DNA from: Ruminococcus sp. UNK.MGS-30
GTDB taxonomy: Bacteria > Bacillota > Clostridia > Oscillospirales > Ruminococcaceae
Reading direction: 5' to 3'
Length of the DNA stretch: 64,000 nucleotides
Assembly: GCA_000980705.1 (NCBI GenBank)
Contig: LBCK01000001.1
Coordinates: 744,001-808,000, forward strand
Positions 48,744 to 64,000 of the stretch are shown here, piece by piece. The notes under the pieces are model-generated. The model searched no databases, had not been told where the DNA came from, and worked only from the letters and a program-made list of their open reading frames with translations. Both the position numbers and the translations under genes were made by a program. Position 1 is the stretch's first letter, and each line of letters begins with the position of its first letter.

Positions 48744-48813
48744 AGAGGTATCAAAACGCACGGAACTGTATACAGTTCACATTTCTGCGCAGAATAAAAA
48801 GGAGGTAACCCCT

Positions 48814-49431: not shown

Positions 49432-49449
49432 ACCGCACCAGCGGCGCAA

Positions 49450-49465
49450 TGTTTCACGTGAAACA
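49450..49465. other. parS: parS site
   Basis: Perfect TGTTTCACGTGAAACA behind the acetyltransferase gene. Confidence 0.95.
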
Positions 49466-49672
49466 TTCCCAAAGTCTCCTTCCCCAGAGGAAATGCCCGG
49501 CAGGGCAGAGGAGTTGTCCACCCTTTTTGAAAAGAGAAACCGTAGGGGCGAACATTGTTCGCCCGAGACTCCTCCGTCAAGCCTGCGGCTTGCCACCTCC
49601 TCTGTAGAGGAGGCGTTCTCAAATTGTCTCCTCTTCCAGAGGAGATGCCCGACAGGGCAGAGGAGTCGATTC

Positions 49673-49688
49673 TGTTTCACGTGAAACA
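49673..49688. other. parS: parS site
   Basis: Perfect TGTTTCACGTGAAACA 44 bases before the thioredoxin start; the tenth and rightmost perfect site, 22.5 kb from the unwinding element. Confidence 0.95.
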
Positions 49689-49731
49689 ATCCAAAACAGC
49701 CCCCAAAAAACAACCCATGGAGGATAAAACA

Positions 49732-50052
49732 ATGGCAGTTACATTTTTGACCAAAGACAATTTCAAAAGCGAAGTCATGCAGGCGGACAAGCCCGTCCTC
49801 ATCGACTTCTACGCAGACTGGTGCGGTCCGTGCCAGATGGTCTCCCCGATCGTGGACGAGATCTCCGGCGAGCGCAGCGACGTAAAGGTCTGCAAAGTCA
49901 ACGTGGATGAACAGGTGGAACTGGCACAGGCGTTCGGCGTGTCCAGTATCCCCACCCTGGCAGTGATCTCCGGCGGCAAGCTGGTGAACCACGCCGTCGG
50001 CGCACAGCCCAAGTCAGCGATCCTGGATATGCTGGATGCCGCAACCAAATAA
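49732..50052 (+). CDS. trxA: Thioredoxin
   Basis: Cytoplasmic dithiol-disulfide oxidoreductase of 106 residues with the active site DWCGPCQM and the cis-Pro segment SSIPTL. The overall pattern (DKPVLIDFYADWCGPCQMV) is standard. ATG 49732 lies 9 bases after GGAGG; an in-frame ATG at 49717 overlaps that site. No thioredoxin reductase is adjacent. A strong terminator follows. Confidence 0.96.
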   Translation: MAVTFLTKDNFKSEVMQADKPVLIDFYADWCGPCQMVSPIVDEISGERSDVKVCKVNVDEQVELAQAFGVSSIPTLAVISGGKLVNHAVGAQPKSAILDMLDAATK

Positions 50053-50068
50053 TGGATGCACCCATCAA

Positions 50069-50114
50069 AAAAGCACCGATCTGCGAGGTTTTCTCACAGG
50101 TCGGTGCTTTTTGT
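50069..50114. terminator. Bidirectional terminator between trxA and the convergent membrane protein gene
   Basis: AAAAGCACCGA pairs with TCGGTGCTTTT around a loop of about 20 bases that itself can pair (CTGCGAG / CTCACAG). T runs follow on both strands. Confidence 0.85.
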
Positions 50115-50137
50115 GTTATGGGAAAATGTCTCACGAA

Positions 50138-51892
50138 TTACGAGATCATTCCAAGTTTCACGTAGAACAGCGCCGCAAAAACTGCAAAGCCGCCGCAGAG
50201 CGCATAGCCGATGCGGTACAGCCAGCGGCAGACCGGTTTTTCCATCTGCCGCAGCCGCTGAAATGCCAGCCCCAGGAACACTGCTCCGATCACACAGGTG
50301 GGCGTAATGTAGCGGTAGTTCATGGAACAGGTAAAGGGTGCGCTTGCCGCCAGCTGGTAAAAGCTAAACAGCAGCACCCCGTAAAATCCAACCAGAAACA
50401 GCCCCGGCAGTCTGCCCAGCGTCTTGTGTTTGCGCCAGAACATCCACACCATAGCGGCGAATGCGGCGGCAGCCAGAAGAACCTCCGTCCAGAACAGCAC
50501 CACACCCAGACTGAACGCCAGGGGATGTCCGTCCACGGTGTATTGGTTGATGTACTCCCCGAATACGGCATTTTTCAGCAGCGTGATAAGGGGATTGTAT
50601 TCGTTGTAGCCGGATGCGTCATAGTGGAGCCACTGCTCGAAAACCTTTGCCACCTGGTGCGGCGAAAAGTCCAGCGCTCTCGACAAAAAGGACTGGTCGC
50701 CCAGGTACTGGTCGGACTTCACCGACATCTCCTGCACATAGTTCAGCGGCACGCCGAACCGCACCAGATTCCGGATGGGATACCAGAGTCCCAGCGGTGC
50801 GCAGATGCCCAGAAAAGCACCGTATTGCCCGAAAATGCGCCAGTTTTTCGCCTTGCACCGCCGCACCAGAACCACCAGGAACACCGCCCCGATGGGAAAT
50901 GCCGCCAGCGCCACAGACAACTTCGTCATCATTCCCAGCCCCATGTACAGGGCGATTTTCAGAATGCCTTCCCAGGTCTGTTTCTCGTACCATTTCAGCG
51001 TCCAAAGCACTGCTCCGAGCAGAAACGCCACGGACAGCACATCGTTGTTGATGCTGCCGGAAAAGAGGATAAAACTGGGGTGAAATGCGATCACCGCCAG
51101 GGGAAAATACAGCGCCGGACCTTCCAGCCTGAAGTGCCGCAGGATCCGGTAGGCAGTAATGATGACCGCCGTGGCGTAGAACAGCGTCAGCGTTTGCAGG
51201 GATTCCTGCGCTACCTCGCTGCCGATGCCGAACACATTTTCGGAAAGCCACAGCCAGACCGCCGAAATGGCGTGGTGCAGCGGCGGATGGTAGAACTGCC
51301 AGTGATCCCGTGGGTCGAAATCCGGCAGACAGTGATGCTCCAGCAGATACGTGATATAGCCGGCATGATTGTTCTCATCTCCGAAACGCCCCACATCGTG
51401 CTGCCGCCAGGTAATGGGCGTGTAGCACACGTAGAAAAGCCGGAGGAAAAAGCTGCTGCCAATTAAAAACAGGGAGATGCGCCGCCGCTGGTTTTGTACC
51501 TGTTTCCGGGTGAGCCAGAGAATGCCTGCGAGAATGGCACAGCCGCCCAGCATAAGCCACAGCCCCGGATGAACCGCCTTGCGGTACTGCCCTGCACCCA
51601 GCAGCACCAGCACTGTGAAACCGATACCAGCCGCTGCCGCTGGGATGCGTCGATGGGGCTGATAGCGCACCAGCCGCCACAAGAGGTAAAAACCGATGAT
51701 GAGCAGCGCCACCGTCTCCAGCATCAGCGCATTTGCGGGAATCCCGTTTTCTGAACCGAAGTACAGTGGATTCAGCAGCAGGCAAAACAGCAGGCTGCAT
51801 AGATAGGGATGGCGTTCCAGCAGCTGAAAATAGCGGTTGGATTTCGGCGCAGGCAGCACTGCTTTATCCAGGATGTGTTTATTTTTGCTCAT
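50138..51892 (-). CDS. Multi-spanning GT-C-type glycosyltransferase-like membrane protein
   Basis: A 584-residue protein with about 12 membrane helices. The first large extracytoplasmic loop has [22 protein letters not shown] and [14 protein letters not shown]. An acidic motif followed by His-rich loop there is the mark of GT-C and PMT-like enzymes, which take sugar from polyprenyl-phosphate. The C terminus is three or four helices without an extra domain. It overlaps the flavoprotein gene upstream by 14 bases, so the two probably act in one pathway of surface glycan assembly. Donor and acceptor are unknown. Confidence 0.82.
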
Positions 51893-53432
51893 GGTATTCC
51901 TTTTCCTGGTTGACGTTCCAGACAGCGCCCTTGTCTGTGGAGTTGTGCTTGATGGCGTCAGCGGCGTGGATCGCCGTCAGCATGGAGTGATCCATATTAT
52001 TGTAGCGGTGCTGTCCGTTTCTGCCCACGCAGAACAGATTGTCGAAGGTGTTCAGATAATCCACGACCTGGTCGAACTGGGCATAGGTGTCAAAATACGC
52101 CGGGTATGCCTTCTTGACCTTTTCCCGGTGCGCATCCAGAACAGCGCCTTCGGTGATGACGCCCATCTTGGTCAGTTCCTTGACGGCGAAGTCCACGCAT
52201 TCCTGATCGCTCATATTCCAGAAGTCGTCCCCTTCTGCACAGAAATATTCCAGACCGATCCAAACGGTTTCCTCCGGCTTTTCCACCATATAAGGAGACC
52301 AGTTGTTGAATATCTGGATTCGACCCAGTTTGACACCCTTGTCCTGGACATAGATCCAGCAATCCGGTACAATATTGCCCAGTGTCGGAGTCCCAGTTTG
52401 ATTGACCAGATTCAGCTTGTTCACCAGCAGTCCCACGGTGACAAAGTCCCGGTACGGGAGACCTGCGGCGATGCGCTGCACCTCGGTGTTATCGCAGCCG
52501 TCCATGCCGGCGATGAGATCCTGAATCGGCATAGACGAAATGAAGATGTCGCCGGTGATGGTCTTGCTGCCCTCCGGCGTCTCACAGACCACAGAAGTCA
52601 CCTTGCCGTTTTCGGTGTGGATGGTCTTTACAGCGTGGTGATACAGGATGCGGCAGCCCTTTTCCTCTGCCTTGTGTCCCACCAGTTCCCAGAGCTGACC
52701 CGGACCGTATTTCGGATACCAGAACTGTTCGATCAGCGAAGTCTCAGCGTTTTCGTTGTTTTTCTTGCCTGAGCGCTTGGAGATCATGTCTTTCAGCACT
52801 GCCCGGATGGACAGCCCCTTAACACGCTGTGCGCCCCAGTCGGCAGAGATCTCGCTGGGGTGTCTGCCCCAGAGCTTTTCGGTGTATCCCTCGAAGAACA
52901 TCCCGTACAGCACCTTGCCGAACCGGTTGATGTAGAAGTTTTCCAGATTGGTCTCCGGCTTTTTCGAGATGCACGAACCCAGATAGCTGAATCCGGCTTT
53001 CATGGTGGTGGCAAAACCCATGCTCTGGATGGTGTTCTTGTTCATGGTCACCGGATAGTCGAAGAAGTGCTTGTTGAAGTAGATGCGGGAGACCCGGTCA
53101 CGCACCAGCATGACCACGTCGTCCTTTTCCGGATCGGGACCGCCTTTTTCCAGGGGCTTTTCCCGTCCCAGCTTTTTGTCGTCATAGGACGGCGCCCCCT
53201 GAATGGGCATCAGATCTGCCCACCACTGCATAACGGTGTCGTCCTTGGAGAAGAACCGGTGACCGCCGATGTCCATGCGGTTGCCGTGATAGCGCACCGT
53301 CTGGGAGATACCGCCCAGAACGCCGCTTTCCTCCAGGATCGTTACGTCATATTCGTTTTCGGTATCCTTGAGCAGTTCATATGCCGCCGTCAGACCAGCC
53401 GGACCGCCGCCTAAAATGATGATTTTTTTCAT
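51879..53432 (-). CDS. UDP-galactopyranose mutase-like FAD-dependent oxidoreductase
   Basis: A 517-residue flavoprotein. The dinucleotide-binding site is [18 protein letters not shown], and the second FAD contact is [10 protein letters not shown]. Middle segments such as [20 protein letters not shown] and [22 protein letters not shown] resemble UDP-galactopyranose mutase and related amine oxidase-fold proteins; the C terminus [29 protein letters not shown] binds the flavin. True mutases are about 370-390 residues, so this longer form may have another sugar-nucleotide substrate or redox role. GAGG lies 9 bases upstream of ATG 53432. Confidence 0.85.
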
Positions 53433-53460
53433 GTTGTAGTCCTCGTTGTAATTTGGATTT

Positions 53461-53536
53461 GGAAATTATTTTGAAAATTTCCATAAACACGAAAGGTGTA
53501 GTTTTTTCACAATAATATAAAATAGACACACCTTTC
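53461..53536 (-). promoter_or_regulatory. Structured 5' leader of the flavoprotein operon
   Basis: Two inverted repeats lie in the leader: GGAAATT/AATTTCC (53461-53482) and GAAAGGTGT/ACACCTTTC (53491-53499 with 53528-53536) around an AT-rich loop. They may form RNA hairpins affecting translation or stability. Confidence 0.45.
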
Positions 53537-53543
53537 TTATTTT

Positions 53544-53572
53544 ATCATAACATAGAAACTGTGCTTTGTCAA
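53544..53572 (-). promoter_or_regulatory. Promoter of the flavoprotein operon
   Basis: The minus strand reads TTGACA, 17 bases, TATGAT, about 110 bases before the start. Confidence 0.75.
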
Positions 53573-53583
53573 TGCGGCGGCGA

Positions 53584-53620
53584 TAAAAAAACTCCGGTCT
53601 GCCATTATACAGACCGGAGC
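53584..53620 (-). terminator. Intrinsic terminator
   Basis: CTCCGGTCTG (53592-53601) pairs with CAGACCGGAG (53610-53619); seven T follow on the minus strand. It lies behind the first antisense RNA unit and insulates the flavoprotein promoter. Confidence 0.82.
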
Positions 53621-53636
53621 TTTAACGATTGCAAAA

Positions 53637-53762
53637 AGAAATAACCGCCCTCAGCGACCAAACTAGAGACGGTTAATTCTTTACTTTATTTGACATGGGA
53701 GCAACCGTCTGCCGGTATGCTCTTTCTATTTTTATTATACTTAAATCCATCCGGTTTGTCAA
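53637..53762 (-). ncRNA. Candidate small RNA, first copy (solitary antitoxin-type RNA)
   Basis: The minus strand has a consensus promoter TTGACA-17-TATAAT (53734-53762). The transcript would run from about 53727 to the AACCGCCC/GACGG..TT hairpin near 53641-53678, about 90 bases. The unit is closely related to the second copy at 53980-54098, but no toxin frame lies opposite it. On the plus strand the same DNA carries a T-tailed hairpin (ATCCGG...ACCGGATTTTTT, 53742-53782). Confidence 0.6.
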
Positions 53763-53794
53763 GGGGCAGACCGGATTTTTTGTGTATCTCCGGC

Positions 53795-53824
53795 TTGACA
53801 GTTTTCGGCAGAATATGCTATAAT
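53795..53824 (+). promoter_or_regulatory. Promoter of the small toxin-like gene
   Basis: TTGACA, 18 bases, TATAAT, about 80 bases before the 27-residue frame. Confidence 0.78.
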
Positions 53825-53902
53825 AACAATCAGAGTGCATTGGAACGGGTACATAGTATGTATTCGGCGGTCTAATCCTGCTCCCGGAAGGGAGTGATTG
53901 CG

Positions 53903-53986
53903 ATGACTTGGATGGAGTTTTTTGCTTTGTGCAATGTTGTATGCGATATCATTTTGATCTTGCAAAACCGCAATAAACGGAAATAA
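53903..53986 (+). CDS. 27-residue hydrophobic peptide, candidate type I toxin
   Basis: Short frame starting MTWMEFF, with a single hydrophobic helix (FALCNVVCDIILIL) and basic tail NRNKRK. This is the plan of membrane-acting type I toxins and the small holin-like toxin peptides of Firmicutes. A good ribosome site GGAAGGGAG lies 8-9 bases upstream, and a consensus promoter precedes it with an 80-base leader. The stop codon lies inside a hairpin (AAATAACCG / CGGTTATTT) shared with an opposing small RNA whose promoter starts at 54098. That overlap would allow antisense control, as in txpA/RatA or bsrG/SR4. No exact family is recognised. It is immediately downstream of the phage-like module. Confidence 0.68.
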   Translation: MTWMEFFALCNVVCDIILILQNRNKRK

Positions 53987-54098
53987 CCGCCCCGAGCTAC
54001 CAACTTGGACGGTTATTTCTTAGCTAACCATTGGGAGCAGACCGTTTCCGATGCGCTCTTTCTATTTTTATTATACTTAAATCCATCCGGTTTGTCAA
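53980..54098 (-). ncRNA. Candidate antisense antitoxin RNA, second copy
   Basis: Minus-strand promoter TTGACA-17-TATAAT (54070-54098). The RNA would start near 54063 and end at the hairpin AAATAACCG/CGGTTATTT (53981-54018), which is also the 3' end of the toxin message. On the plus strand a T-tailed hairpin (ATCCGG...ACCGGATTTTTTT to 54118) can end a longer toxin message that covers the whole antisense RNA. Confidence 0.65.
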
Positions 54099-54156
54099 GT
54101 AGCAGACCGGATTTTTTTATTCTTTTCCACACCTCACTGTGGAAAGTACTCACCCG

Positions 54157-55050
54157 TCACGTCATCCGAAACGCCCCGTTCTGTTCCGGTGCATCCGGCC
54201 GCTTTAGCTGTGCCTGACAGAGATGTTTCTGTCGGGTGCGGAGCGTCTCCCGGAATGCCAGCAGTTCTTCCGGATTCATGCGCTCCACTGCCGCCGAAAC
54301 AGCATCCTTTTCCGTGCAGCCCTCTACCAGAAACCGCAGCCGCACCACATCCTGCCGCAGTGCATTCTGCATGCGGTTCAGCAAAACGTCCCGGTTTTGC
54401 AGCTGCTGTTCCAGTTGTTTGCAGCGCTGTGCGCCGTCCGTCTCCGAGCGGAACTGCTTGGTGACGCCTGCCTCACGCTGCGCCGGCACAGCCACAAAGC
54501 TCCACTCATAGGCATCCGTCACATCTCCCAGCACCACATGACAAAGCTTGTCTCCGTACCGCTGCCCTATCCGGTGGGAACAGGGGGAATTCCTGCGGTC
54601 GCTGCCGCAGACGGAGCAGGTCTGGGATGCTGCCGCACAGGAGATGCTCACTTCCTTCTTGATGCCGCCGTCAATTTCCCGGATCAGATCCCGGTTGGCA
54701 TCGGTGCGCACCATGTAGGCGTGTCCTTTCAAAAAGGTATACACCTCGCCGGCAGCCGTGATGCGTTCCGGATCCTGTACCAGTTCTGCCGCATAGAGCC
54801 GTGCCGTCTGGTTCTCTCCCTTGGGGTTGTGGTCAAAAATGCCCGTTTTTCCGACAAAAAGCGTTTTCAGCTGTTCCAGCGCCTCCAAAGAAAAACGCTC
54901 GCCGTCCCGGTCGATCTCATTGTCGCACAGCCGTACATCAAAGAGAAACACCTCTTCCTGGGTCAGCGTGCGTCGGGTAAACTGGTTCAGCTGCGCCAGC
55001 CTAACCTCCATCTCCTCTGTACCGGGATTTTCCGTCTTGTTTTCTGCCAT
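54157..55050 (-). CDS. Prohead protease-like phage protein with Cys-rich insert
   Basis: A 297-residue protein, last gene of the phage-like module. The N-terminal half matches the pattern of phage prohead maturation proteases: VFLFDVRLCDNEIDRDGERF, a candidate catalytic His in GIFDHNPKG (H74), IDGGIKKEVSIS with a candidate Ser (S136) and YEWSFVAVPAQREAG. Between the last two lies a Cys/His cluster (C138, C145, C148, C157, H159, C170) that may bind zinc. The C-terminal third is a coiled coil (about 205-270), as in protease-scaffold fusions. Family placement is by motif order and context only. Spacing behind the capsid gene is 144 bases. Confidence 0.7.
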   Translation of the reverse strand: MAENKTENPGTEEMEVRLAQLNQFTRRTLTQEEVFLFDVRLCDNEIDRDGERFSLEALEQLKTLFVGKTGIFDHNPKGENQTARLYAAELVQDPERITAAGEVYTFLKGHAYMVRTDANRDLIREIDGGIKKEVSISCAAASQTCSVCGSDRRNSPCSHRIGQRYGDKLCHVVLGDVTDAYEWSFVAVPAQREAGVTKQFRSETDGAQRCKQLEQQLQNRDVLLNRMQNALRQDVVRLRFLVEGCTEKDAVSAAVERMNPEELLAFRETLRTRQKHLCQAQLKRPDAPEQNGAFRMT

Positions 55051-55151
55051 TCTGTTCTTCTCCTCTCTGCTGTACTGTTTTCCACCCCTGTGGAAAACCC
55101 ACCCGTTTCACAATCTCCCGCCCGTACAGCACTTTCCACATACTTTCCACT

Positions 55152-55165
55152 TTTCCACGTGGAAA
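55152..55165. other. parS-like palindrome TTTCCACGTGGAAA
   Basis: A 14-base perfect palindrome upstream of the protease-like gene. Its core CCACGTGG matches Bacillus-type parS, but the outer bases differ. Several TTTTCCAC motifs lie beside it. Probably not a true ParB site. Confidence 0.35.
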
Positions 55166-55194
55166 GATAAGTCACCTTTTTCGAGTGTCTTTCA

Positions 55195-56163
55195 TTACAG
55201 GCTCAGCACGTGTACCGCCTCATTCAGCATGACACGGAACGCCACACGAATAGAAACCGTAATCACATCCAGCTGGCTGTCGATCAGCTTGTCTGTCTCC
55301 AGCAGCAGGTCGTCGGTGGTGATCATCTCCAGGGCAAAGCGCTTGTCCAGACCGATCAGATACTCCGAGGACATTCCGGCACACTTGCGCAGCTGTGCGC
55401 CAAAGGGCAGCAGAATGGTGCTGGGCTGAGCGGACGCCATATCCTGCATCTGCTCCATGCCCATGATCTTTGCCGCAGCTGCCGGCGATGCCAGCACAGT
55501 GGTCATGTCAAAATCGCTGAATTCTCCGTACAATTTCGTCAGATCGGCATAGGTCAGCACGCCCTCTGCGGCAGTGTCAATGGAAGAGCCGTTGTTGTCC
55601 TTCATGCTGAGGATGCTCTGTCCCAGCAGGGCATTCGCCAGGCGCACACCTACCGCACGCAGCACAGCGCTGAACGCATCCAGGCGCTGGCGGCGGATCG
55701 CCTCATAGGACGCATGGATGGAACGGCCGAACTTGTTCAGCCGGGTGGTGGTCACTGCCTCCAGATAGGACGCCGTGGGCAGGGCATTGCCCTGGGTGGT
55801 CTTGGTGGAATACGCCGCCGTATCGGTCAGCACTGCCGGCTGATACTCACCGCCGGGAGACAGGGTGTGTACTGCCACCAGGTCAGACAGCACAGACTGC
55901 TCCATGCCGCTGCGGATGGCACGGCGGATGAACTCCGGAAACAGCACGGCGCTGTCGGTGGTGGAGAAAAACTTTTCCACACGGTCGCAGTGAGAACCGC
56001 TGACGTGAATGTCGAAACGCTTCAGCTGGCGCTCATAGGCATCCAGTCCTGCCAGCGGTGTTTCGGCATAGCCGCCGGAGGGATCCATGCTCTCCAGCAC
56101 CTCAGAAAAGCTCTTGCCTGTGATGTGATACATACCCTTTTCCAGTTTCAGATCTTTGTACAT
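55195..56163 (-). CDS. Phage major capsid protein-like
   Basis: A 322-residue protein that I read as an HK97-fold major capsid protein of the PBSX/XkdG type. Features: LDAYERQLKRFDIHVSGSHCDRVEKFF near the N terminus, AVLFPEFIRRAIRSGMEQ, the E-loop-like GGEYQPAVLTDTAAYSTKTTQGNALPTASYLEAV, FGRSIHASYEAIRRQRLDAFSAVLRAVG, and a C-terminal strand region LLLETDKLIDSQLDVITVSIRVAFRVMLNEAVHVL. It follows the hub-like gene after an R3 repeat. The assignment rests on pattern and neighbours (terminase, portal). Confidence 0.78.
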   Translation of the reverse strand: MYKDLKLEKGMYHITGKSFSEVLESMDPSGGYAETPLAGLDAYERQLKRFDIHVSGSHCDRVEKFFSTTDSAVLFPEFIRRAIRSGMEQSVLSDLVAVHTLSPGGEYQPAVLTDTAAYSTKTTQGNALPTASYLEAVTTTRLNKFGRSIHASYEAIRRQRLDAFSAVLRAVGVRLANALLGQSILSMKDNNGSSIDTAAEGVLTYADLTKLYGEFSDFDMTTVLASPAAAAKIMGMEQMQDMASAQPSTILLPFGAQLRKCAGMSSEYLIGLDKRFALEMITTDDLLLETDKLIDSQLDVITVSIRVAFRVMLNEAVHVLSL

Positions 56164-56236
56164 AAGTTACCTTACCTTTCCGCCGCTTTCTGCGGCAACA
56201 CAATATAAAAATGATTGAGAGCCTATTGGCACATTT

Positions 56237-56310
56237 TTAAGATGTCCCCCTTAAAAAGGCGCCCGTAGGGTGTGCCTTGTGCTGGGATGTCAGCGTAGCT
56301 GACAGGGGAA
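56237..56310. repeat. R3 repeat inserted between phage-like genes
   Basis: An R3 element (CCCCCTTAAAAAGGCGCCCG ... GTCAGC-GTA-GCTGAC) begins directly behind the stop of the hub-like gene and precedes the capsid gene. The leader of the capsid gene would contain it. Confidence 0.85.
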
Positions 56311-57246
56311 TTACACCGGATAAAACTCGTCCCGGTATGCCTCCAGCCGTGTCCGCACACCGTTCTGATTGCCGGTCATGCGGATGTGTGTCACCGGCGC
56401 ATCCAGCAGTGCGCTGCCGTAGGTGATCCGGTCGCCCAGATCTGCCTCCACTGCGCCGATCAGGTCGAAATAATAGGACAGTAGCCCACGCCCGGCGAAT
56501 TTCCGGCGAAACACCAGCGCCTGCTGCGGATCATAGAGATACTGCCGGTCCAGAGACAGCTTGCGGCTGCGCACCAGCCCTCTTTCTTCCGCAAGCGTGT
56601 CGTTTTCCTGGAATTTACCGTATGTTCCGTCGGTATCTGCCATGGAAAAACTGCTGTAGATGCGGGACTGGTCTGTCACCATGCCCATTCCCAGCAGCGA
56701 TCCCGGCTGCATATGAAACGTCCGGTACGATTCCGGCAGGTGCATCCGCACTTCGTTGGCGTGATACACAAAGGGATACCGCTGGCACAGCTTATAGGTG
56801 AGGTTCGCTGCGCCGTCCCACAGGCTGGTGTTTTCCTTGACAAAGAGATAGTTGCTGGTGTCCGTGCTGGATTCCCAGGTGATCTCCTTGGGAAACGAAA
56901 CAAACTCCTGCATCAGCCTGTCCAGGGACATGGCGGTGTGCAGCCCCGGTTCCAGCTGGTTCTGGAGCAGCATTGCAGTCAGCCCACGGGACGAGATCTG
57001 CACCCGTGCAATGCCATTTTCCAGCGTCAACCGGCACTGTTCCACCGTCCCGAAGTGCATCTCCGTGCCGTTCACCAAAAGCTGTACCCGGGATACGTCG
57101 GCGAACTGGGTCAGCGAAAAGCTGCCGTATGCCGCCGCCGTCAGCTGGCTGTAGGGCGTGTACATCTCCTTGTCCAGCGTAAACGAAGCGATTCCGCTGG
57201 AAATCTGTGTTTTGCTGTTTTTCCCCATGAGAACCAGCTGTATCAT
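56311..57246 (-). CDS. Phage baseplate-hub/late-control-D-like protein
   Basis: A 311-residue protein of the phage-like module. N-terminal segment MIQLVLMGKNSKTQISSGIASFTLDKEMYTPYSQLTAAAY (read as two parts) followed by VSRVQLLVNGTEMHFGTVEQCRL resembles the first barrel of hub proteins (gpD/XkdQ-like). The middle (SLWDGAANLTYKLCQRYPFVYHANEVRMHLPE) fits the second hub domain. The start overlaps the preceding gene by 4 bases. Identification is tentative because no other tail gene is present. Confidence 0.55.
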   Translation of the reverse strand: MIQLVLMGKNSKTQISSGIASFTLDKEMYTPYSQLTAAAYGSFSLTQFADVSRVQLLVNGTEMHFGTVEQCRLTLENGIARVQISSRGLTAMLLQNQLEPGLHTAMSLDRLMQEFVSFPKEITWESSTDTSNYLFVKENTSLWDGAANLTYKLCQRYPFVYHANEVRMHLPESYRTFHMQPGSLLGMGMVTDQSRIYSSFSMADTDGTYGKFQENDTLAEERGLVRSRKLSLDRQYLYDPQQALVFRRKFAGRGLLSYYFDLIGAVEADLGDRITYGSALLDAPVTHIRMTGNQNGVRTRLEAYRDEFYPV

Positions 57247-57665
57247 GTGCTTTCTGTCACCTCCCCGGTCTCCGGCGGCACATAGGTCAATACGCTGGGG
57301 ACGATCAGCGTCATCTGACAGGGCAGCACCCCGTCCATCGCCTTTTCCGCAATGGAATACCCCACGATCTCCGCCATGGAAAAGCGCATATCCCGGAGCG
57401 TAAAGCTGAACCGGGTCTTTTCCCGCAGCGCCGCATCCAGCGGCAGGATCACCTCATAAGGACGCTCCAGGCAGAAAAAGCTGCCGTCCAGCACCAGCTG
57501 TTTGGTGCGTGCGCCGCTGTTGGTCACATAACAGCTGCCCTGTACACCGTTTTGCTGGGCATACTGCCGGACACAGGAGAGCTTCCAGCCCGTGGCGTGA
57601 AATGTAAGATCGCCCAGCTTGACGGGAAAACTCCGGGGCGTGACCGCCCGAAACAAACCGCTCAT
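57243..57665 (-). CDS. Phage-like module protein, unknown (140 residues)
   Basis: Beta-rich protein of 140 residues (VKLGDLTFHATGWKLSCVRQYAQQNGVQGSCYVTNSG, read in parts; LVLDGSFFCLERPYEVILPLDAAL; FTLRDMRFSMAEIVGYSIAE). Start and stop both overlap neighbours by 4 bases, so it is tightly coupled with the hub-like gene. Its place suggests a head-tail or tail-tube-related structural role, but I do not recognise the family. Confidence 0.65.
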   Translation of the reverse strand: MSGLFRAVTPRSFPVKLGDLTFHATGWKLSCVRQYAQQNGVQGSCYVTNSGARTKQLVLDGSFFCLERPYEVILPLDAALREKTRFSFTLRDMRFSMAEIVGYSIAEKAMDGVLPCQMTLIVPSVLTYVPPETGEVTEST

Positions 57666-58081
57666 ACCAGATGTGCCTCCTCTCTGTGCATCTGAAATAC
57701 ACCGTCCATGCCGAATGTTCCCTTCACGGCGATGCGCCGGAACTGGCGCAGTTCCTCCGGACTGCCGATGCGGATGTGCTGTAATGCAAAGCCTGCGGAG
57801 AGCATCCCGGAGAATACCTCCCGGCAGTAGCTGTCATACAGGGTGCGCACATCCGTATCCGGCGGCGCCAGCAGAATGACCTGTACAGATGCCGTAAAGG
57901 GATAGTACAGGAATTCGCCGCTGAGAAAGGGCGACTGCATCTCCGTCCCGGAAATTCCCACGGTGAGGAACCAGTCCGGGCGCTTGTCGAAGGGTGTCGG
58001 ATCATAGGCATCGTAGATCTGCCACTCCGCCCGGTCCGCCAGCGCCGCTTTCACCTTTTTCAAAAGCTGATCCATGAGCAT
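57662..58081 (-). CDS. Phage-like module protein, possible tail terminator/completion protein
   Basis: A 139-residue protein (MLMDQLLKKVKAALADRAEWQIYDAYDPTP..., FLSGEFLYYPFTASVQVILLAPPDTDVRTLYDSY, HIRIGSPEELRQFRRIAVKGTFGMDGVF). The alternation of a leading helix, a beta sheet and late strand region is like small phage minor tail or terminator proteins (for example XkdJ-like). ATG 58081 follows AGGAGGTGA; a longer frame to 58150 overlaps the preceding gene and is rejected. Function inferred from position. Confidence 0.6.
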   Translation of the reverse strand: MLMDQLLKKVKAALADRAEWQIYDAYDPTPFDKRPDWFLTVGISGTEMQSPFLSGEFLYYPFTASVQVILLAPPDTDVRTLYDSYCREVFSGMLSAGFALQHIRIGSPEELRQFRRIAVKGTFGMDGVFQMHREEAHLV

Positions 58082-58098
58082 TGCGCTCACCTCCTTTC

Positions 58099-58455
58099 TT
58101 ATGCCACTGCCAGAAACAGAAACGATTTCTCTTCCAGCAGGGCGTGACACAGGTTCTCGTATGCCTGCACCAGCAGCTCGGCAAAGCGCAGTTTCTGGCT
58201 GCCGTCGGTGTTCTGTGCCACCGTCCCGGCAAAGGTGCAGGCGGCACGGTCTCTTGCGGCGGTGATCTGGGTATAGCGCAGAAATCCCACCGCCGCCGCC
58301 AGCCAGTTCAGCCGGGCATCCGCAGCGTCCGCATCGGGACGCAGCGCCTGCTCCACCTCCAGCACAGCAGTTTCCAGCACTGCCCCGTAGGTCTCACCCA
58401 GCGTGTCGTCTCCGGCAAACAGCCCGAACAGACGTGCAATTTGTGCTTGTTCCAT
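58099..58455 (-). CDS. Phage head-tail connector-like protein
   Basis: A 118-residue, mainly helical protein (MEQAQIARLFGLFAGDD ... VLETAVLEVEQALRPDADAADARLNWLAAAVGFLRYTQITA). Proteins of this size and helical content directly behind portal genes are usually adaptor or connector proteins (gp6-like). AGGAGGTGA lies 7 bases before its ATG and 1 base after the portal stop region. Identification is by context. Confidence 0.6.
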   Translation of the reverse strand: MEQAQIARLFGLFAGDDTLGETYGAVLETAVLEVEQALRPDADAADARLNWLAAAVGFLRYTQITAARDRAACTFAGTVAQNTDGSQKLRFAELLVQAYENLCHALLEEKSFLFLAVA

Positions 58456-58471
58456 TTGACTTCACCTCCTC

Positions 58472-59626
58472 TCACGGTTCCAGTTCTGCCTCGATCTGCG
58501 CCGCCTGGGCGTTCCACAGTCTCGCCTGTGCATACTCCGTCTCGTCCTGGAGATTGATGTTGCTCCACTCCACCGACACGTCAGCCTGCGACCCGGCGAG
58601 CCGCAGAAACGCCGTTCCCACCCGGCGCAGCACCGGGTCTAACAGGCGGCGGTAATATTCCAGCTCTGAGGTGAGGATATCCGCCTGCTGACTGCTCATG
58701 CGCTCTGTGGATGACCAGTTCAGCCCCAGCAGAAACGGCGGAATGGACAGCTTGGCGATCAGCTGTTCCAACAGCTGGCGCACCGGCACTTCCGTGTCCA
58801 GCAGGGCATTGTCAGCGCCGATGACCCGGATGTCCACATCTCCGGCGCAGATAAAGTCCCGGATCTCTCCGGCTGCCCCGGCACGCATCCCCTCGCTCCA
58901 CTCCTTGGCGATCTGCCTTGCACGCTCTCCGGCATAGGCTCTCTCGTTGGGGTCGTTGGACGGCTTATAGGTCACGGCATAGCGCACATTTCCCATCCGG
59001 TCGTAGTTCTGCCCGATGCAGGCATAGATGCGCAGCAAAATGTGACTTAGCGCCGGCAGCCCACGCAGAACGGAAACGCCGTACACACCGCCCGGCGGCG
59101 GATTCAGCGCCGTAAACAAAATTCGTTCCGGTCTGGCGATGCGGATGCTGTCCGACTCCTGCTCGCCACGCAGCCAGTACTGCCGTTCCAGGGGATGGCT
59201 GCCCGGTCGGATCTGCACCAGCTCTGCCGGCACAGTCTGCAAACCGCCCAGATAGCCGGTGCGGTTGTCGATGAGCATTTCCCCCAGGGCATTGCCGTAG
59301 GTGAGCAGGCTGTCCAGATAGGCGTCTGCAAAGGTCTGCAGCGACTGCCCGGTCAGCCCCACCGGAACGCTTCGGACAAACTCGTCCAGCTGTTCCTGCA
59401 TCCGGCTGTCTCCGGCGACCAGCTGAAAGCTGCCGGTGAGCCGGACGATCTTTCCAATGGCGGCGTCGATCACCGGGACGGCACGGCGCAGCCCGGCATA
59501 CAGCGCCGGTTCACAGGGGTCCTGCGTCTCCGGCAGCGCATACTGGCTTTCTGCCCGTGCGGCGCTCTGCAAAATGCTGCCGCTTACGGGCGGTTTCTTT
59601 TTCCTCGGAAATAATCCCATACACAT
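58472..59626 (-). CDS. Phage portal protein
   Basis: Portal-family protein of 384 residues that would form the DNA entry ring. Family features: YAGLRRAVPVIDAAIGKIVRL, FADAYLDSLLTYGNALGEMLID, NPPPGGVYGVSVLRGLPALSHILLRIYACIGQNYDRMGN, VIGADNALLDTEVPVRQLLEQLIAKLSIPPFLLGLNWSSTERMSSQQADIL and a helical C terminus. Its ATG abuts the terminase stop codon. The frame is intact with no sign of decay. Confidence 0.9.
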   Translation of the reverse strand: MCMGLFPRKKKPPVSGSILQSAARAESQYALPETQDPCEPALYAGLRRAVPVIDAAIGKIVRLTGSFQLVAGDSRMQEQLDEFVRSVPVGLTGQSLQTFADAYLDSLLTYGNALGEMLIDNRTGYLGGLQTVPAELVQIRPGSHPLERQYWLRGEQESDSIRIARPERILFTALNPPPGGVYGVSVLRGLPALSHILLRIYACIGQNYDRMGNVRYAVTYKPSNDPNERAYAGERARQIAKEWSEGMRAGAAGEIRDFICAGDVDIRVIGADNALLDTEVPVRQLLEQLIAKLSIPPFLLGLNWSSTERMSSQQADILTSELEYYRRLLDPVLRRVGTAFLRLAGSQADVSVEWSNINLQDETEYAQARLWNAQAAQIEAELEP

Positions 59627-60877
59627 TTACCTTCTTCCTGCGGAAACCGCATAAAATCCGTCTGCCGGATTCCGGCAGACAACGGTGCGGACGAAATAGC
59701 GCATATCGTCCATGGCGTGGTCGTGTTCCTTGCGTGGGGCATCGCCGTGTGCCGAATCGTTCCAGCAGTACTGGGTGAATTCACGCCGGATATCCCGGCA
59801 GGATTCGCAGAACCTCAGCTTGTCCTGCATCAGCAGGCGGCTCACCTGCTGGATGCCGGCGTTTACGTCGTTGTCCGCCCGGAGTACCCGAAACCGACCG
59901 TGACTGTGGATGCAGGCGATAAAGCTTGCTGCGGAAGGGTCTACGATCACGGTCTCTACGGCATACCCGGCGGCAAGCTGTTCCAATGCGGCATAGTGTT
60001 CCTCATCGGTGCGCCGCTCGCCCTCGGCTCTTGCATCATAATAGTATTCCTCCAGCCGGTACCAGACCCCGTCACAGTGTCCCCACAGCCCGAAGGAGGA
60101 CGGGTTCACTGTGCCGTAGTCACAGGAGATCCAGAACCGGTCACACGCCGGTGCTTTTGCCACCACATGGCGTTCCGGCGCAAACATGGGATATACCAGC
60201 CCGTCTGCCGCCGTCCATTTTCCCAGGACAAAGCGGTCATAGAACGCACCACTGTACATCCGTTCATACCGCTGCCGCACACGCCGGGAAAGGGAGGGGT
60301 TGTCCGCCATGGTGAAGTGGACATACAGGGCGTGCTTTTCTCCGGTCTTTCGGATCCATTCCCGATAGAACCAGTGTCCGGGGTGGTCGGGGTTGCAGTT
60401 GAACCACAGCCGTGAGCCAGTCACGCTGCACCGTGCCAGCGCCTGTTCCACAAAGGAACGGGGCATCAGCGCCACCTCATCCAGAAACACGCCGCAGAGC
60501 GTCATGCCCTGGATCAGCGCTGCGGAGCTTTCGTCCCTGCCGCCGAAGAGATAAAACCGGTTCGTCCTGCCGCACAGGGTGATGTCCACATAGTTCCGGC
60601 TCACCCGTTCCAGACAGGTGAACCCCAGGTTTCCCAGCAGCCCCAGCAGCGGCGTCATCACGTTGCGTTTCAGCGCCGTGATGGTCTTGCCGCACAAGGC
60701 GAAGCTGCCGCCCTGGAAACTGGTCATCGCCCAGCTGATAAACCCGATGGACATGGAAAGCGTCTTTCCCGAGCGGACTGCCCCGTCACAGATGATGGCG
60801 TCATAGTCCCGATAGGGCTTGCGGCTCCACCAGGACATGGCGAGCTTCTGCTTGGGAGAAAAGGTCTTAAACTCCAT
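59627..60877 (-). CDS. Phage terminase large subunit (PBSX/XtmB-like)
   Basis: Packaging motor ATPase and nuclease of 416 residues. Walker A is CDGAVRSGKTLSMSIG; Walker B plus catalytic Glu is GVFLDEVALMPR; the coupling motif is WFNCNPDHPGHWFY. The C-terminal RNase H-like nuclease keeps acidic residues in WISCDYGTVNPSSFGLWG, VIVDPSAASF and HAMDDMRYFV. Both activities therefore appear complete. It overlaps the small subunit by 11 bases and abuts the portal gene. Confidence 0.94.
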   Translation of the reverse strand: MEFKTFSPKQKLAMSWWSRKPYRDYDAIICDGAVRSGKTLSMSIGFISWAMTSFQGGSFALCGKTITALKRNVMTPLLGLLGNLGFTCLERVSRNYVDITLCGRTNRFYLFGGRDESSAALIQGMTLCGVFLDEVALMPRSFVEQALARCSVTGSRLWFNCNPDHPGHWFYREWIRKTGEKHALYVHFTMADNPSLSRRVRQRYERMYSGAFYDRFVLGKWTAADGLVYPMFAPERHVVAKAPACDRFWISCDYGTVNPSSFGLWGHCDGVWYRLEEYYYDARAEGERRTDEEHYAALEQLAAGYAVETVIVDPSAASFIACIHSHGRFRVLRADNDVNAGIQQVSRLLMQDKLRFCESCRDIRREFTQYCWNDSAHGDAPRKEHDHAMDDMRYFVRTVVCRNPADGFYAVSAGRR

Positions 60878-61358
60878 CGCCGTTCACCGCCTCTCCGCCG
60901 GAAAGCGCCGCAAGCAGTGTCTGCGCCGCCGCCTTGCTGTCCGCATCGCCGCTGTACTCATAGAGCGACGCCAGCGCCTTCAGCCGGTCAAAAAAGTGGA
61001 TCTCCATGCCGCCGCTCTTGTCCCGCTTGATCGAGGACACCGGAAACAGATCCAGCTGTGCCACCTCTGCCGCCGTGGGCAGCTCTTCGCCCAGCAGGAG
61101 CCGCACCGCATCATTGGTGCGTCCGAACGCCAGGCGCTCCAGTCCGGCACGCACCATCGCCATGGGGTCATCATGAAGAACACTTCGATAGTTTGTCACC
61201 ATGCGCCGATAGCACTGCTGCCGCAGGATCGCTGCGCCGTCCGCTGCTGCTGTCTCCGGCGGATAGCCGGCACACCTCGCCGCCTCTGCCACATCCCCCA
61301 GTCTGGCGTAGTGACAGCAGAACAGGCTGCGTCTTTTGGTCTCTGCTGAATTTGACAT
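60867..61358 (-). CDS. Phage terminase small subunit
   Basis: A 163-residue DNA-recognition subunit. The N-terminal helix-turn-helix region is LFCCHYARLGDVAEAARCAGYPPETAAADGAAIL; the rest (MAMVRAGLERLAFGRTNDAVRLLLGEE, MEIHFFDRLKALASLYEYSG) fits the XtmA/Terminase_2 pattern. It is the first gene of the module and faces a divergent promoter region containing two perfect palindromes. Confidence 0.85.
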   Translation of the reverse strand: MSNSAETKRRSLFCCHYARLGDVAEAARCAGYPPETAAADGAAILRQQCYRRMVTNYRSVLHDDPMAMVRAGLERLAFGRTNDAVRLLLGEELPTAAEVAQLDLFPVSSIKRDKSGGMEIHFFDRLKALASLYEYSGDADSKAAAQTLLAALSGGEAVNGDGV

Positions 61359-61445
61359 ATCTTTCCATTTCCCCTTTCGGTTTTCTGCGACAAGGATCGC
61401 ATCTCATTGACGACCCCTCTCACTAATACCCCCGCAGAGGGCAAA

Positions 61446-61467
61446 AGTTGCACGCCGGCGTGCAACT
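61446..61467. promoter_or_regulatory. 22-base perfect palindrome upstream of the phage-like module
   Basis: AGTTGCACGCC and GGCGTGCAACT abut without a spacer, giving two-fold symmetry. It lies about 90 bases upstream of the terminase small-subunit start, where an operator or a packaging-initiation site could be. Confidence 0.6.
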
Positions 61468-61534
61468 ATGAACTCGAATTTACACGATATCTTATGATTA
61501 TTTACATTTAGAACGGCTTTTACCACGTTTTGGC

Positions 61535-61563
61535 TTGACAGATAGGTTCCGCCGTGCTATAAT
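61535..61563 (+). promoter_or_regulatory. Consensus promoter upstream of the padR operon
   Basis: TTGACA, 17 bases, TATAAT, on the plus strand, 290 bases before the PadR start. Confidence 0.82.
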
Positions 61564-61575
61564 ATATGCGTAATC

Positions 61576-61598
61576 AATATTATACGTCGTATAATATT
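61576..61598 (+). promoter_or_regulatory. Operator-like palindrome at the start of the padR transcript
   Basis: AATATTATACG and CGTATAATATT flank a single T, a perfect 11-base inverted repeat about 13 bases after the -10. Its position would let a bound repressor, such as the downstream PadR, block the promoter. Confidence 0.7.
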
Positions 61599-61599
61599 G

Positions 61600-61853
61600 C
61601 AGGAGTAAAAAACAAGAGCCGATGCAGGCATCGACTCAAGGCGCTTTTGTACTATTTGAAAAGGCGAGTCAACTCCTCCGCCCTTCGGGCACCTCCTCTG
61701 GGAGAGGAGGCTAAATTGGCTCCTCTCATAGAGGAGCTGGCAGCCGCAGGCTGACTGAGGAGTCAATGTTCACCCCTGCGACAACCAAACACATCCGCCC
61801 CTGCAAAATCCCCTTTCCCAAAAACGACTCCTCTCTGAAAGAAGGTGAAACCA
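61600..61853. repeat. R2-like repeats in the leader of the padR operon
   Basis: An AGGAG at 61601-61605 is followed by a short frame that runs into R2-type arms (about 61672-61765, CTCCTCTGGGAGAGGAG and CTCCTCTCATAGAGGAG). The original gene start may have been displaced by this insertion. No gene is called here. Confidence 0.6.
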
Positions 61854-62165
61854 TTGTCTGCATTTTCCATTGGAGCAACGCTGCTGGATGCTATGGTGCT
61901 GGCGCTGCTGACGAAGGAGGATACCTACGGCTATCAGATCACCAAGGACATCCAGGAACACTTTGCCGTATCCGAATCCACCTTGTATCCCGTGCTGCGG
62001 CGGCTGCAAAAAAACGGCAGTCTCACCACCTATGACCGACCGTATCAAGGCAGAAACCGCCGCTATTACCGCATCACCGTCTCCGGCAGAGCGCTGCTGG
62101 ATCAGTACCGGAAAGACTGGCTCACCTATAAGCAACAGGTGGACTTTTTCCTGGACGAGAAATAA
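61854..62165 (+). CDS. PadR-family transcriptional regulator
   Basis: Winged-helix regulator of 103 residues (ATLLDAMVLALLTKEDTYGYQITKDIQEHFAVSESTLYPVLRRLQKNGSL, read in parts, then YYRITVSGRALLDQY). The start is TTG 61854, 8 bases after AAGAAGG; a GTG at 61845 overlaps that site. PadR proteins repress envelope-stress or drug-export genes. Here it precedes a DUF1700-like gene and DUF4097-like genes, a common Firmicutes set. The palindrome at 61576-61598 is a candidate binding site. Confidence 0.92.
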   Translation: MSAFSIGATLLDAMVLALLTKEDTYGYQITKDIQEHFAVSESTLYPVLRRLQKNGSLTTYDRPYQGRNRRYYRITVSGRALLDQYRKDWLTYKQQVDFFLDEK

Positions 62166-62454
62166 TTGTAGTGCGATGTAAATTCTAAAACTTTATAGAT
62201 TAGGCTCCCTTGAAAAGGGAGCTGGCAGCCGTAGGCTGACTGAGGGATTTGACTGTGAAACCAGCAATTCAAGAAAAAATTTCACCAGAATCCCTCCACC
62301 AGCTTCGCTGGTTCCCCTTCCTTTTCAAGGGAGGCTTATTCCTATCGTTTTAACTGTTACATCGTAGTAAGGGGCGATGCAAACACCGCCCCGCATACAC
62401 CCCCACAATCCCTCATCATCCAAAAAGCAATCTTCAAAAAGGAGCGATATTCCT
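62166..62454. repeat. Inverted pair of R3-related elements between padR and the DUF1700-like gene
   Basis: GCTCCCTTGAAAAGGGAGC with GGCAGCCGTAGGCTG (about 62200-62245) is mirrored by CACCAGCTTCGCTGG and CCTTTTCAAGGGAGGC (about 62296-62337). Together they could fold into one long hairpin inside the operon message. Confidence 0.65.
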
Positions 62455-63018
62455 ATGACACCACAAGCATACTGCGCCCGTCTGGAACAGGCGCTTTCCT
62501 CCATGCCGCCGGCAGAGCGGCAGGAGATCATCCGCTATTATCTGGAATTCCTGGAGGACGCCAGCGAGGACGAACGCAGCGCCCTCGGCACGCCGGAAGA
62601 ACTGGCGCAGCGCATTCTCCGGGAAAACGGCATCTTTCCGCCGGACACCGCTGCCGCACCGCCGAAGAAAAATTCCAACCGCATTGCAAAATGGATCATC
62701 CTGGCGTGTACCTGCTATATCTGGATTCCGCTGCTCACCACCTGGTACAGCCTGCTGCTTACGGCGCTGATCGTCCTGGCGGTGATTCCCATTGCCCTCT
62801 GCGCCGCACTGCTGGGCGGACTGTTCACCTTTGTCCTGGCTTTGTTCCAGGATGTGCCGTCTGCGCTGATGCAGCTGGGCATGGGGCTTGCCTGCGGCGG
62901 CGTCGCTGCCCTGGTCGCTTATCCCATCTGGATCGCCTGCAAAAGCATTGTAAAATTCGCCCTGTTCACCACAAAAAAGATGTGGCACTTCGTCACGAAG
63001 GGAGACGATACCCCATGA
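62455..63018 (+). CDS. DUF1700-like membrane protein
   Basis: A 187-residue protein. The N-terminal cytoplasmic segment (YCARLEQALSSMPPAERQEIIRYYLEFLEDA, GTPEELAQRILRENG) is the hallmark of the DUF1700/HAAS group. Three or four membrane helices follow (IAKWIILACTCYIWIPLLTTWYSLLLTALIVLAVI, split here; LGGLFTFVLALFQ; GMGLACGGVAALVAYPIWI). AAGGAG precedes ATG 62455. It overlaps the next gene by 4 bases. Such proteins accompany PadR regulators and are thought to sense or modulate envelope state. Confidence 0.88.
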   Translation: MTPQAYCARLEQALSSMPPAERQEIIRYYLEFLEDASEDERSALGTPEELAQRILRENGIFPPDTAAAPPKKNSNRIAKWIILACTCYIWIPLLTTWYSLLLTALIVLAVIPIALCAALLGGLFTFVLALFQDVPSALMQLGMGLACGGVAALVAYPIWIACKSIVKFALFTTKKMWHFVTKGDDTP

Positions 63019-63368
63019 AAAAACGCTGTATTCTGATCGGCGCAGTCTATGGGCTGGTGCTGCTGGGCTGGGGCATCACCGGGACTTTTTCCCCTGCCGC
63101 CCCGACCCGTTCGGAGCAGTCGGACAATGCCGTACCTGTAGAGACCATCCAGCTGGAACAGCTCTGCATCTGTCCGGGAAACACCTTTTCCGTCCGGACG
63201 AGCCAGCCGCTTTCCGCATCCCGGAATGGCTCGGTGCTTTCCCTGCGGCGGCAATGGCAGCTGTTTCAGCGCCACAGCGAAAACGATATCACCATTACCC
63301 TGCCGGCGGCGCAGTTTGCACAGCTGGAGCAGGCAGTTAATACGACCAAAAGGAGTGACCAGAAATGA
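63015..63368 (+). CDS. Small membrane-anchored or secreted protein of the padR operon
   Basis: A 117-residue protein with an N-terminal hydrophobic segment (ILIGAVYGLVLLGWGITGTF) and a short outside domain ending in LPAAQFAQLEQAVNTTKRSDQK. The first and last 4 bases overlap neighbours, so translation is coupled. The domain may be a reduced DUF4097-like strand unit; no family is certain. Confidence 0.75.
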   Translation: MKKRCILIGAVYGLVLLGWGITGTFSPAAPTRSEQSDNAVPVETIQLEQLCICPGNTFSVRTSQPLSASRNGSVLSLRRQWQLFQRHSENDITITLPAAQFAQLEQAVNTTKRSDQK

Positions 63369-64000
63369 AAATGAAACCTTGGATCATCACCGGTGTCAGC
63401 CTGCTCTGTGCCGGAGCGATCTGCTGCGGCGCAGCCGTCCATGCCGGCGCACTGGATCAGAAACGCTACATGAAAATGCTGGATCTCACCGACTATACCG
63501 ACACCCCGGACGGTGCTTTTTCCTCCGTGCTGATGGATATTGAAAGCGCCGATGTGACCGTGCAGAACGGCAGTGCGCTTTCCGTCGCCGCAAAGAATGT
63601 CCCGGAGGACAGCTACAGCGTCACCGTCGAAAATGACACTCTGCACATTCAGATGAGTTCCAACAACGAGCCGTGGTACAGCTTCACCCGTTTCGGATTC
63701 CACCCGTTTTCCGCTCCACGGGCGAAGATCACAGTGACCCTGCCGGATGCGGAATACCAGGCAGTGGCTGTGGCAAACAGTTCCGGAGACTGCACCGTTT
63801 CCGGCATCAGCGTCAGCACCCTGTCCCTGGATCTGGATTACGGCGACTGCTGGGTACAGAATGTGACGGCGGCGAGTCTGACTGCCGTCAACAAAGCCGG
63901 AGAACTGACGATCTCGGACAGCAGCGTCAGCGGCACGGCATCCCTGGTGCTGAATTACGGCGATCTCACAGCCAAAAACACCGAGGTGCAGAATCTGTGC
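63365..64000 (+). CDS. DUF4097-like surface beta-helix protein (3' end outside window)
   Basis: The first 212 residues of a protein that continues beyond the window. An N-terminal signal or anchor helix (PWIITGVSLLCAGAICCGAAVHAG) is followed by a beta-rich domain with repeating short strands (VLMDIESADVTVQNGSALSV, VAVANSSGDCTVSGISVSTLSL, LNYGDLTAKNTEVQNL). This pattern is typical of DUF4097 putative adhesin or envelope-stress domains found with DUF1700 and PadR genes. Start ATG 63365 overlaps the previous stop. Confidence 0.87.
   Translation, partial: MKMKPWIITGVSLLCAGAICCGAAVHAGALDQKRYMKMLDLTDYTDTPDGAFSSVLMDIESADVTVQNGSALSVAAKNVPEDSYSVTVENDTLHIQMSSNNEPWYSFTRFGFHPFSAPRAKITVTLPDAEYQAVAVANSSGDCTVSGISVSTLSLDLDYGDCWVQNVTAASLTAVNKAGELTISDSSVSGTASLVLNYGDLTAKNTEVQNLC

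Follow-up and report, generated by a model that had tools for sequence, protein, structure and literature searches.

A largely vertically inherited head and packaging operon of Ruminococcus as a candidate gene transfer agent-like system

Introduction

Gene transfer agents (GTAs) are best known from Alphaproteobacteria. We analysed 64 kb of the genome of Ruminococcus sp. UNK.MGS-30 (contig LBCK01000001.1, positions 744,001 to 808,000; this whole stretch is called the window and numbered from its first base), in which an initial annotation had designated nine minus-strand genes, here called the cassette, as a compact phage packaging and head module. To judge from its sequence, the source of the window is a Ruminococcus close to Ruminococcus callidus, with which it shares 85% DNA identity across terS-terL. 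A GTA of gut Firmicutes, FpGTA of Faecalibacterium, was described in 2026 by Borodovich et al. (PMC12946183), whose text also reports GTA-like packaging in Ruminococcaceae and Oscillospiraceae, and 4.6 kb pieces of R. callidus DNA packaged inside particles from human stool; that text names no R. callidus genes behind these pieces. Among the titles and abstracts of the literature searched, we recognised no published account of this Ruminococcus cassette.

Results

Nine intact genes for a predicted head, packaging motor and stub tail

The cassette occupies 7.2 kb of the minus strand (54157-61358) and consists of nine open reading frames (ORFs), all open and intact. Most of them overlap or touch, as first annotated: neighbouring ORFs overlap by 11, 52, 4 and 4 bp or are separated by 0 and 16 bp, and larger gaps precede only mcp (147 bp) and prot (144 bp).

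The first gene, terS (60867..61358), encodes a small terminase subunit of 163 aa, 83% identical to that of R. callidus, with matches to Terminase_2, phrog_2606 and phrog_51. The Terminase_2 match is marginal (25.7 bits, just under the cut-off of 26.1); in it, residues 7-136 align to profile positions 2-128 of 141. The large subunit gene, terL (59627..60877; 416 aa), is of the PBSX type (TIGR01547, 178 bits for a cut-off of 105; phrog_2). Its motifs, which we take to be Walker A (GAVRSGKT), Walker B (FLDE) and three acidic motifs of the RNase H type, are all intact, so that the ATPase and nuclease motifs are complete, as had been claimed, and the same motifs are present in 117-131 of the 133 TerLs from related loci. 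The portal protein (58472..59626; 384 aa) belongs to phrog_30703 (E 2e-134), and its relatives match PF04860. Several public records (P0012, P0044, P0121, P0174, P0189, P0194, P0238) name this portal family 'serine/threonine protein phosphatase'; keyword searches therefore miss the cassette.

Four genes follow. From its position, g4 (58099..58455; 118 aa; conserved family A5) would encode a small neck or connector-like protein; it had no significant match among solved structures. The next gene, g5 (57662..58150), is predicted to adopt a tail-terminator fold: its model (predicted local distance difference test, pLDDT, 93.2) matches tail terminators, lambda gpU (3fz2) being among the best (E 2.8e-6, probability 1.00). 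Because R. callidus g5 begins there, the g5 start is probably near 58081 rather than 58150, and the 52 bp overlap with g4 then vanishes. For g6 (57243..57665), the predicted structure (pLDDT 90.0) has a tail-tube or Hcp-type fold, suggesting a tube or tube-initiator ring, and resembles baseplate proteins, tubes and a virion chain of RcGTA, the GTA of Rhodobacter (6tba, E 2e-4). These two intact ORFs, initially listed as unknown, can thus now be named by fold. The product of g7 (56311..57246; 311 aa) is a baseplate or tail hub, in agreement with its earlier label: the profile of its family, A3, matches 3d37, 'Tail protein, 43 kDa' (E 2.7e-5), and its relative in locus L236 is a phrog_177 baseplate hub (1.4e-21).

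The last two genes are mcp (55195..56163; 322 aa), encoding the major capsid protein (phrog_3922, 8e-64; PF25209, 8e-8), and prot (54157..55050; 297 aa), which occupies the place of a prohead protease or scaffold. The Prot protein matches phrog_16951, a family of unknown function (1e-96), and contains long invariant blocks across 29 relatives; it matched no solved structure significantly. Its initial description as protease-like depends on its position beside the capsid gene and on conservation, and Prot is a candidate prohead protease or scaffold. Profile against profile comparison of the cassette families gave nothing significant, the best pairs being c31-g5 (E 0.0025, probability 11.8) and c31-prot (E 0.002, probability 13.9).

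In family profile scans, none of the nine genes was recognised as encoding a tape measure, sheath, fibre or lysis protein. The scans were extended to nine flanking genes, from 45538 to 63997, and covered only dnaA among the other window genes. Neither the cassette nor these flanking genes contained an integrase or replication gene, in keeping with the absence of tape measure, sheath, lysis and integrase genes first reported. As no tape measure is present, the tail would be a stub. In conclusion, the operon is predicted from sequences and structural models to encode a capsid, a motor, a neck, a terminator, one tube-fold protein and a hub. The terminase, portal and capsid genes expected of a GTA are all present.

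Distribution and gene order of the cassette

A TerL scan using one genome per species confirmed 279 relatives; the best 80 are labelled nearly exclusively Ruminococcus, Oscillospiraceae, Ruminococcaceae, Clostridia or Bacillota, and one metagenome-assembled genome is labelled Alistipes. The portal protein, which is more specific than TerL, was found in all 16 species genomes of the genus of R. callidus, in one copy each (one of which has an internal stop), in 126 of the 297 genomes of its family and in 8 of the 391 of its class. The cassette is thus not a peculiarity of one strain. The portal family phrog_30703 was absent from 14 of 14 control genomes, and the cassette was single-copy in all 12 genomes chosen for this count. 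With a portal query from a complete genome, Faecalibacterium was absent from the best 120 of 7935 matches, among which Oscillospiraceae names were found. A segment of the Faecalibacterium phage FP_Mushu (12 of 36.6 kb) served as a marker of that genus in 396 genomes; its best match, in a single genome, was not decisive, with 78% identity along 1335 of 3057 bases.

Gene order was compared at 140 genome-derived loci (80 from the best TerL relatives and 60 further ones, some contigs occurring in both sets). The mcp gene precedes prot at 70 loci, 69 of them complete to g7, and prot precedes mcp at 58; 8 loci are truncated and 4 lack the portal gene. Where both mcp and g7 lie in the stretch examined (126 loci), g4-g7 stand ahead of mcp in the window only. 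In the type strain R. callidus ATCC 27760, the nine genes are all present and follow the window order, capsid last, on two contigs; an interspersed repeat between g4 and g5 interrupts the assembly, which is why this strain was left out of the count. The terminal position of capsid and protease genes noted initially is therefore real, and being confined, among the loci compared, to the window and R. callidus ATCC 27760, it is a clade-specific rearrangement.

In the R. callidus clade, synteny extends beyond the nine genes into the upstream PadR operon. Beyond the clade, a small ORF directly after g7 recurs at 13 loci; every other flanking family is limited to at most 9 of the 81 sequences compared, a set that includes sequences with short flanks. 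Thus, the cassette is conserved and its address is not. Long relatives in which prot precedes mcp (e.g. L236) encode, in one gene run, a sheath for the tail, a tube-like protein, the hub and baseplate J, which suggests that the stub-tailed cassette derives by reduction from a contractile-tailed ancestor. No full prophage was seen at this site in relatives. Baseplate_J, used as a proxy for a second locus, was found in 4 of 22 genomes (genus level and R. flavefaciens) and not in R. callidus; no FpGTA II-like operon was identified in this way, fibre, holin and endolysin families not having been searched.

Vertical inheritance and purifying selection

Trees of concatenated terL-portal-mcp-prot and of rpoB were compared for 30 hand-chosen genomes. 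The two trees have 17 of 27 splits in common, for a mean of 0.18 and a maximum of 2 with permuted labels, and 15 of the 19 well supported rpoB splits are present in the cassette tree. Cassette and rpoB distances are correlated (0.88), and trees of single cassette genes have 12-13 splits in common with rpoB. By these sequence comparisons, the cassette is largely vertically inherited within its host lineage, an outcome that the initial annotation would count as support for retention.

The ratio of non-synonymous to synonymous substitution rates (dN/dS; Nei-Gojobori) was calculated between the window and R. callidus for eight of the nine genes, g5 being left out. It is 0.080 for terL, 0.085 for portal, 0.105 for mcp, 0.128 for prot, 0.136 for terS and 0.224 for g7. 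Seven other pairs of genomes gave 0.05-0.23 for the four packaging genes where the ratio is defined, terL and mcp of one pair being saturated; rpoB gave 0.014-0.075 in this comparison. The packaging genes are under purifying selection, which the initial annotation would likewise count as support. The host-like style attributed to the cassette is supported by GC content: the cassette (0.592) is richer than its flanks in the window (0.540), and over 103 loci cassette GC tracks flank GC (r = 0.94), being on average 3.6 points higher.

An element upstream of terS

A perfect palindrome, GTTGCACGCCGGCGTGCAAC, followed by TTTT, lies on the minus strand at 61447..61466, 89-108 bp upstream of the terS start. 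After a short spacer comes the box TATTAGTGAGAGG (61416..61428, minus strand), in a position resembling that of a promoter -10 sequence. The box is conserved in the clade and has a single match in the 64 kb at no more than one mismatch, for 0.02 expected. With up to two mismatches, the palindrome is present in 53 of 128 terS upstream regions (window included) vs 42 of 2560 windows drawn at random from those loci, an enrichment that is partly circular because the pattern was derived from those same upstream regions. Among 51 distinct palindromes, 32 are exact. Stem positions 5-16 and 7-14 pair more often than in any of 500 shuffles (42/51 vs a maximum of 38, and 38/51 vs a maximum of 37); pair 1-20 also exceeds every shuffle but is fixed by the pattern, and the innermost of the nine pairs, 8-13 and 9-12, do not exceed the shuffles. 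The palindrome may act in DNA, as an operator or a promoter, or in RNA, as a hairpin. Between the element and terS, no promoter of the sigma-70 type was predicted for the terS strand, and a search of Rfam with the terS leader returned no known RNA, two matches being far below threshold.

Copies of the element outside the cassette

The element (GTTGYAY-N6-RTRCAAC, TTTT, then a TATTAGTGAGAGG-like box) was searched with one mismatch in 24 genomes. There were 84 matches in 16 genomes, compared with 5 for the reversed pattern; the 84 include both strands, so that a palindrome is often counted twice. The element stands at the cassette in 13 genomes. The scan outside the cassette is free of the circularity that affects the terS count. 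Forty-one such sites were counted and 39 retrieved, and 33 were examined for the downstream gene in the direction of the box, assigned by eye; the other retrieved sites lie at contig ends (L344, L349, L351) or have no box (L360, L362, L363). The grouping of the 33 sites is ours, and family scans covered part of the genes.

A clear phage-type gene follows the element at 11 of the 33 sites, which belong to four genomes: G412 (L332, 4043-6419; L333, 4054-6038), G250 (L343, L350, L365), G086 (L352, L353, L354) and G143 (L334, L336, L338). These lone genes encode a D5/NrS-1-like primase, DnaD-type helicase loaders with an IstB/DnaC-like partner, an SPP1-type holin, a CHAP endolysin, a BppU-type baseplate protein, MuF (ribonuclease) proteins and a DUF6291 protein. 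Two sites are ambiguous (L345, L347), and seven lie in DUF4417/DUF6883-type regions (L335, L337, L361). In G143 and G126, several element copies adjoin repeated DUF4417/DUF6883-type genes. Of 10 chosen downstream genes, 8 matched a PHROGs family; of 10 chosen neighbours, 3 did, including one tail protein.

The cassette in virus collections

In IMG/VR, 58 of the 78 contigs with a related TerL also carry the cassette portal, which was found in none of the nine IMG/VR contigs of at least 19 kb within the stretch examined. Phage records contain 516 entries with a related TerL and six with a related portal, namely five scaffolds from human faeces labelled 'Bacteriophage sp.' and a Microcystis phage whose portal is 30% identical. 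We inspected four of the five faecal portal scaffolds and one TerL-only scaffold. Three faecal scaffolds carry the cassette up to g7, and MT835508 (L388) extends from terS to a terminator-like gene, with surrounding ORFs almost all on the other strand. From this gene layout, our reading is that the faecal scaffolds are probably mislabelled chromosomal fragments. We saw no complete phage carrying this head module among the phage records and IMG/VR contigs examined. Short IMG/VR contigs with the cassette (L081-L158) resemble fragments of bacterial chromosomes filed as viruses.

Surroundings of the cassette

The scanned flanking genes contain no phage domains. They match PadR, HAAS, DUF4097, FAD oxidase, PMT_2, thioredoxin, acetyltransferase and fucose isomerase families, and one is without match. 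The divergent neighbour of terS, at 61845..62165 on the plus strand, encodes a PadR-type regulator (PF03551, 4e-20) and is syntenic with R. callidus. It is preceded by a sigma-70 promoter matching at 12 of 12 positions (61535-61563, plus strand) and by a perfect palindrome, ATATTATACGTCGTATAATAT (61577-61597), which on sequence grounds is likely to be an autoregulated PadR operator.

Interspersed repeats occur at 22 places in the window (e.g. 11845-12660, 25757-26698, 28656-29386, 53638-53781 and 53980-54117), and their relatives sit at the assembly break of R. callidus ATCC 27760 between g4 and g5. The dnaA gene is at 24388-25758, and the cassette is therefore about 30 kb from a likely replication origin.

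Discussion

We propose, with a probability of roughly 70%, that the nine genes form the head, packaging and stub-tail operon of a vertically kept GTA-like particle whose source, for Ruminococcus and some members of its family, was an ancient phage related to PBSX. What we observe, together with the predicted folds, is that genes and motifs are intact, that the cassette is single-copy and for the most part vertically inherited, and that selection on it is purifying; we infer from this that a particle would be assembled, filled with random DNA, released and able to deliver its content. The operon would be switched on through the upstream element. The capsid protein, aided by Prot, would build a small shell on the portal, and TerS and TerL would load it with a short piece of host chromosome. 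The shell would then be closed by the products of g4, g5, g6 and g7, as neck, terminator ring, tube-fold ring and hub, and lysis and receptor binding would be supplied by genes elsewhere. An operon of this type is a likely, though unproven, source of the 4.6 kb R. callidus DNA-filled stool particles; at 7.2 kb, the cassette is too long to fit one such particle.

Several observations weigh against this proposal. Neither the nine genes nor the scanned flanks include a recognised gene for lysis, fibre or receptor binding. Three of the 19 well supported rpoB splits are strongly contradicted by the cassette tree, and 171 of the 297 family genomes have no portal match; therefore, loss or some horizontal transfer occurred. 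Two genes evolve faster, g4 (dN/dS 0.341) and g6 (0.46). Internal stops were found in one of 127 portal matches, a broken portal copy being that of G150, and in one of four MCP matches (G039), and at 5 of 140 genome loci a gene lies in several open pieces. Decay of cassette copies, which the initial annotation had named among the outcomes that would speak against retention, exists but is rare. Finally, TerS matches Terminase_2 over nearly the whole profile, with a score just below the cut-off; the text of PMC12946183 describes the FpGTA TerS as having no obvious DNA-binding domain.

Among other explanations, a domesticated particle might be kept for a role other than transfer, as a PBSX-like killing particle or an altruistic lysis device that is built and filled and whose stub tail delivers no DNA. 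Comparative evidence cannot separate it from a GTA; PBSX provides a Gram-positive precedent that does not inject DNA (PMC12946183), and sheath, fibre and receptor-binding genes were not found in the nine genes and scanned flanks. A killing particle, however, normally needs a full tail, whereas here a complete packaging motor accompanies a reduced tail and constraint is strongest on terL and portal, and we consider this explanation unlikely.

Satellites of the capsid-forming phage-inducible chromosomal island (cf-PICI) kind make their own small capsids, package their own DNA and borrow helper tails. The cassette resembles them in that it provides terminase, portal, capsid and head-completion proteins itself and has few genes for a tail, but it encodes its own hub, is single-copy in each of the 16 genus genomes and follows the rpoB tree, and the nine scanned flanking genes contain no integrase or replication gene. 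For the last two reasons the satellite reading, one of three offered initially, is not supported, and we regard it as highly improbable; the other two, a GTA-like particle or a domesticated packaging device, are well supported comparatively. Equally little credit goes to a decaying prophage remnant that is still intact by chance. The broken copies described above would fit such a remnant, as would the additional tail genes retained by the long relatives, but low dN/dS, family-wide retention, the scarcity of portal stops and congruence with rpoB speak against it, and the phage records and contigs examined yielded no full phage carrying this head module.

The GTA-like operon might also be one locus of a genome-dispersed, phage-derived regulon, in which the host genome acts as the phage and head, lysis, attachment and replication-start modules are switched on together by a regulator reading the element. 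The distribution of the element outside the cassette supports this idea without proving it. Three points weigh against it: 13 of the 33 sites precede host-like or unknown genes or no clear gene; in R. callidus, as in the window, the element occurs once only, in R. callidus at the cassette; and the L332 primase is full-length in only one of the 16 genus genomes, its own, with six more partial or weak matches. We put the regulon forward tentatively, as a possibility that is on balance doubtful.

Many species of the family have retained the gene set, and its presence in R. callidus ATCC 27760, a type strain in culture, makes it a concrete GTA candidate. The upstream cis-element is a handle for finding partner genes and their regulator. 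The cassette also points to a reason why chromosomal sequences of these bacteria, when present as short contigs, end up filed as viruses.

Several known systems resemble the cassette. As described in the text of PMC12946183, FpGTA I and II have a short or no visible tail and small DNA-filled capsids; FpGTA I comprises ten ORFs in 10.5 kb, vs nine genes in 7.2 kb here, and packages 8.4-8.9 kb, vs the 4.6 kb reported for R. callidus, a comparison made by description rather than by sequence. PBSX of Bacillus subtilis has a TerL of the same terminase family, and the likeness extends in the long relatives to sheath and baseplate J; unlike PBSX, the cassette and its scanned flanks have no recognised sheath, tape measure or lysis gene. 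With cf-PICI satellites the cassette shares capsid and packaging genes of its own and a paucity of tail genes; it differs in its inheritance with the host and in the absence of an integrase or replication module beside it. RcGTA belongs to another phylum and has a longer cluster, with tail and tape measure; like the cassette, it is a vertically kept head-tail cluster, and one of its virion chains is matched by the g6 fold.

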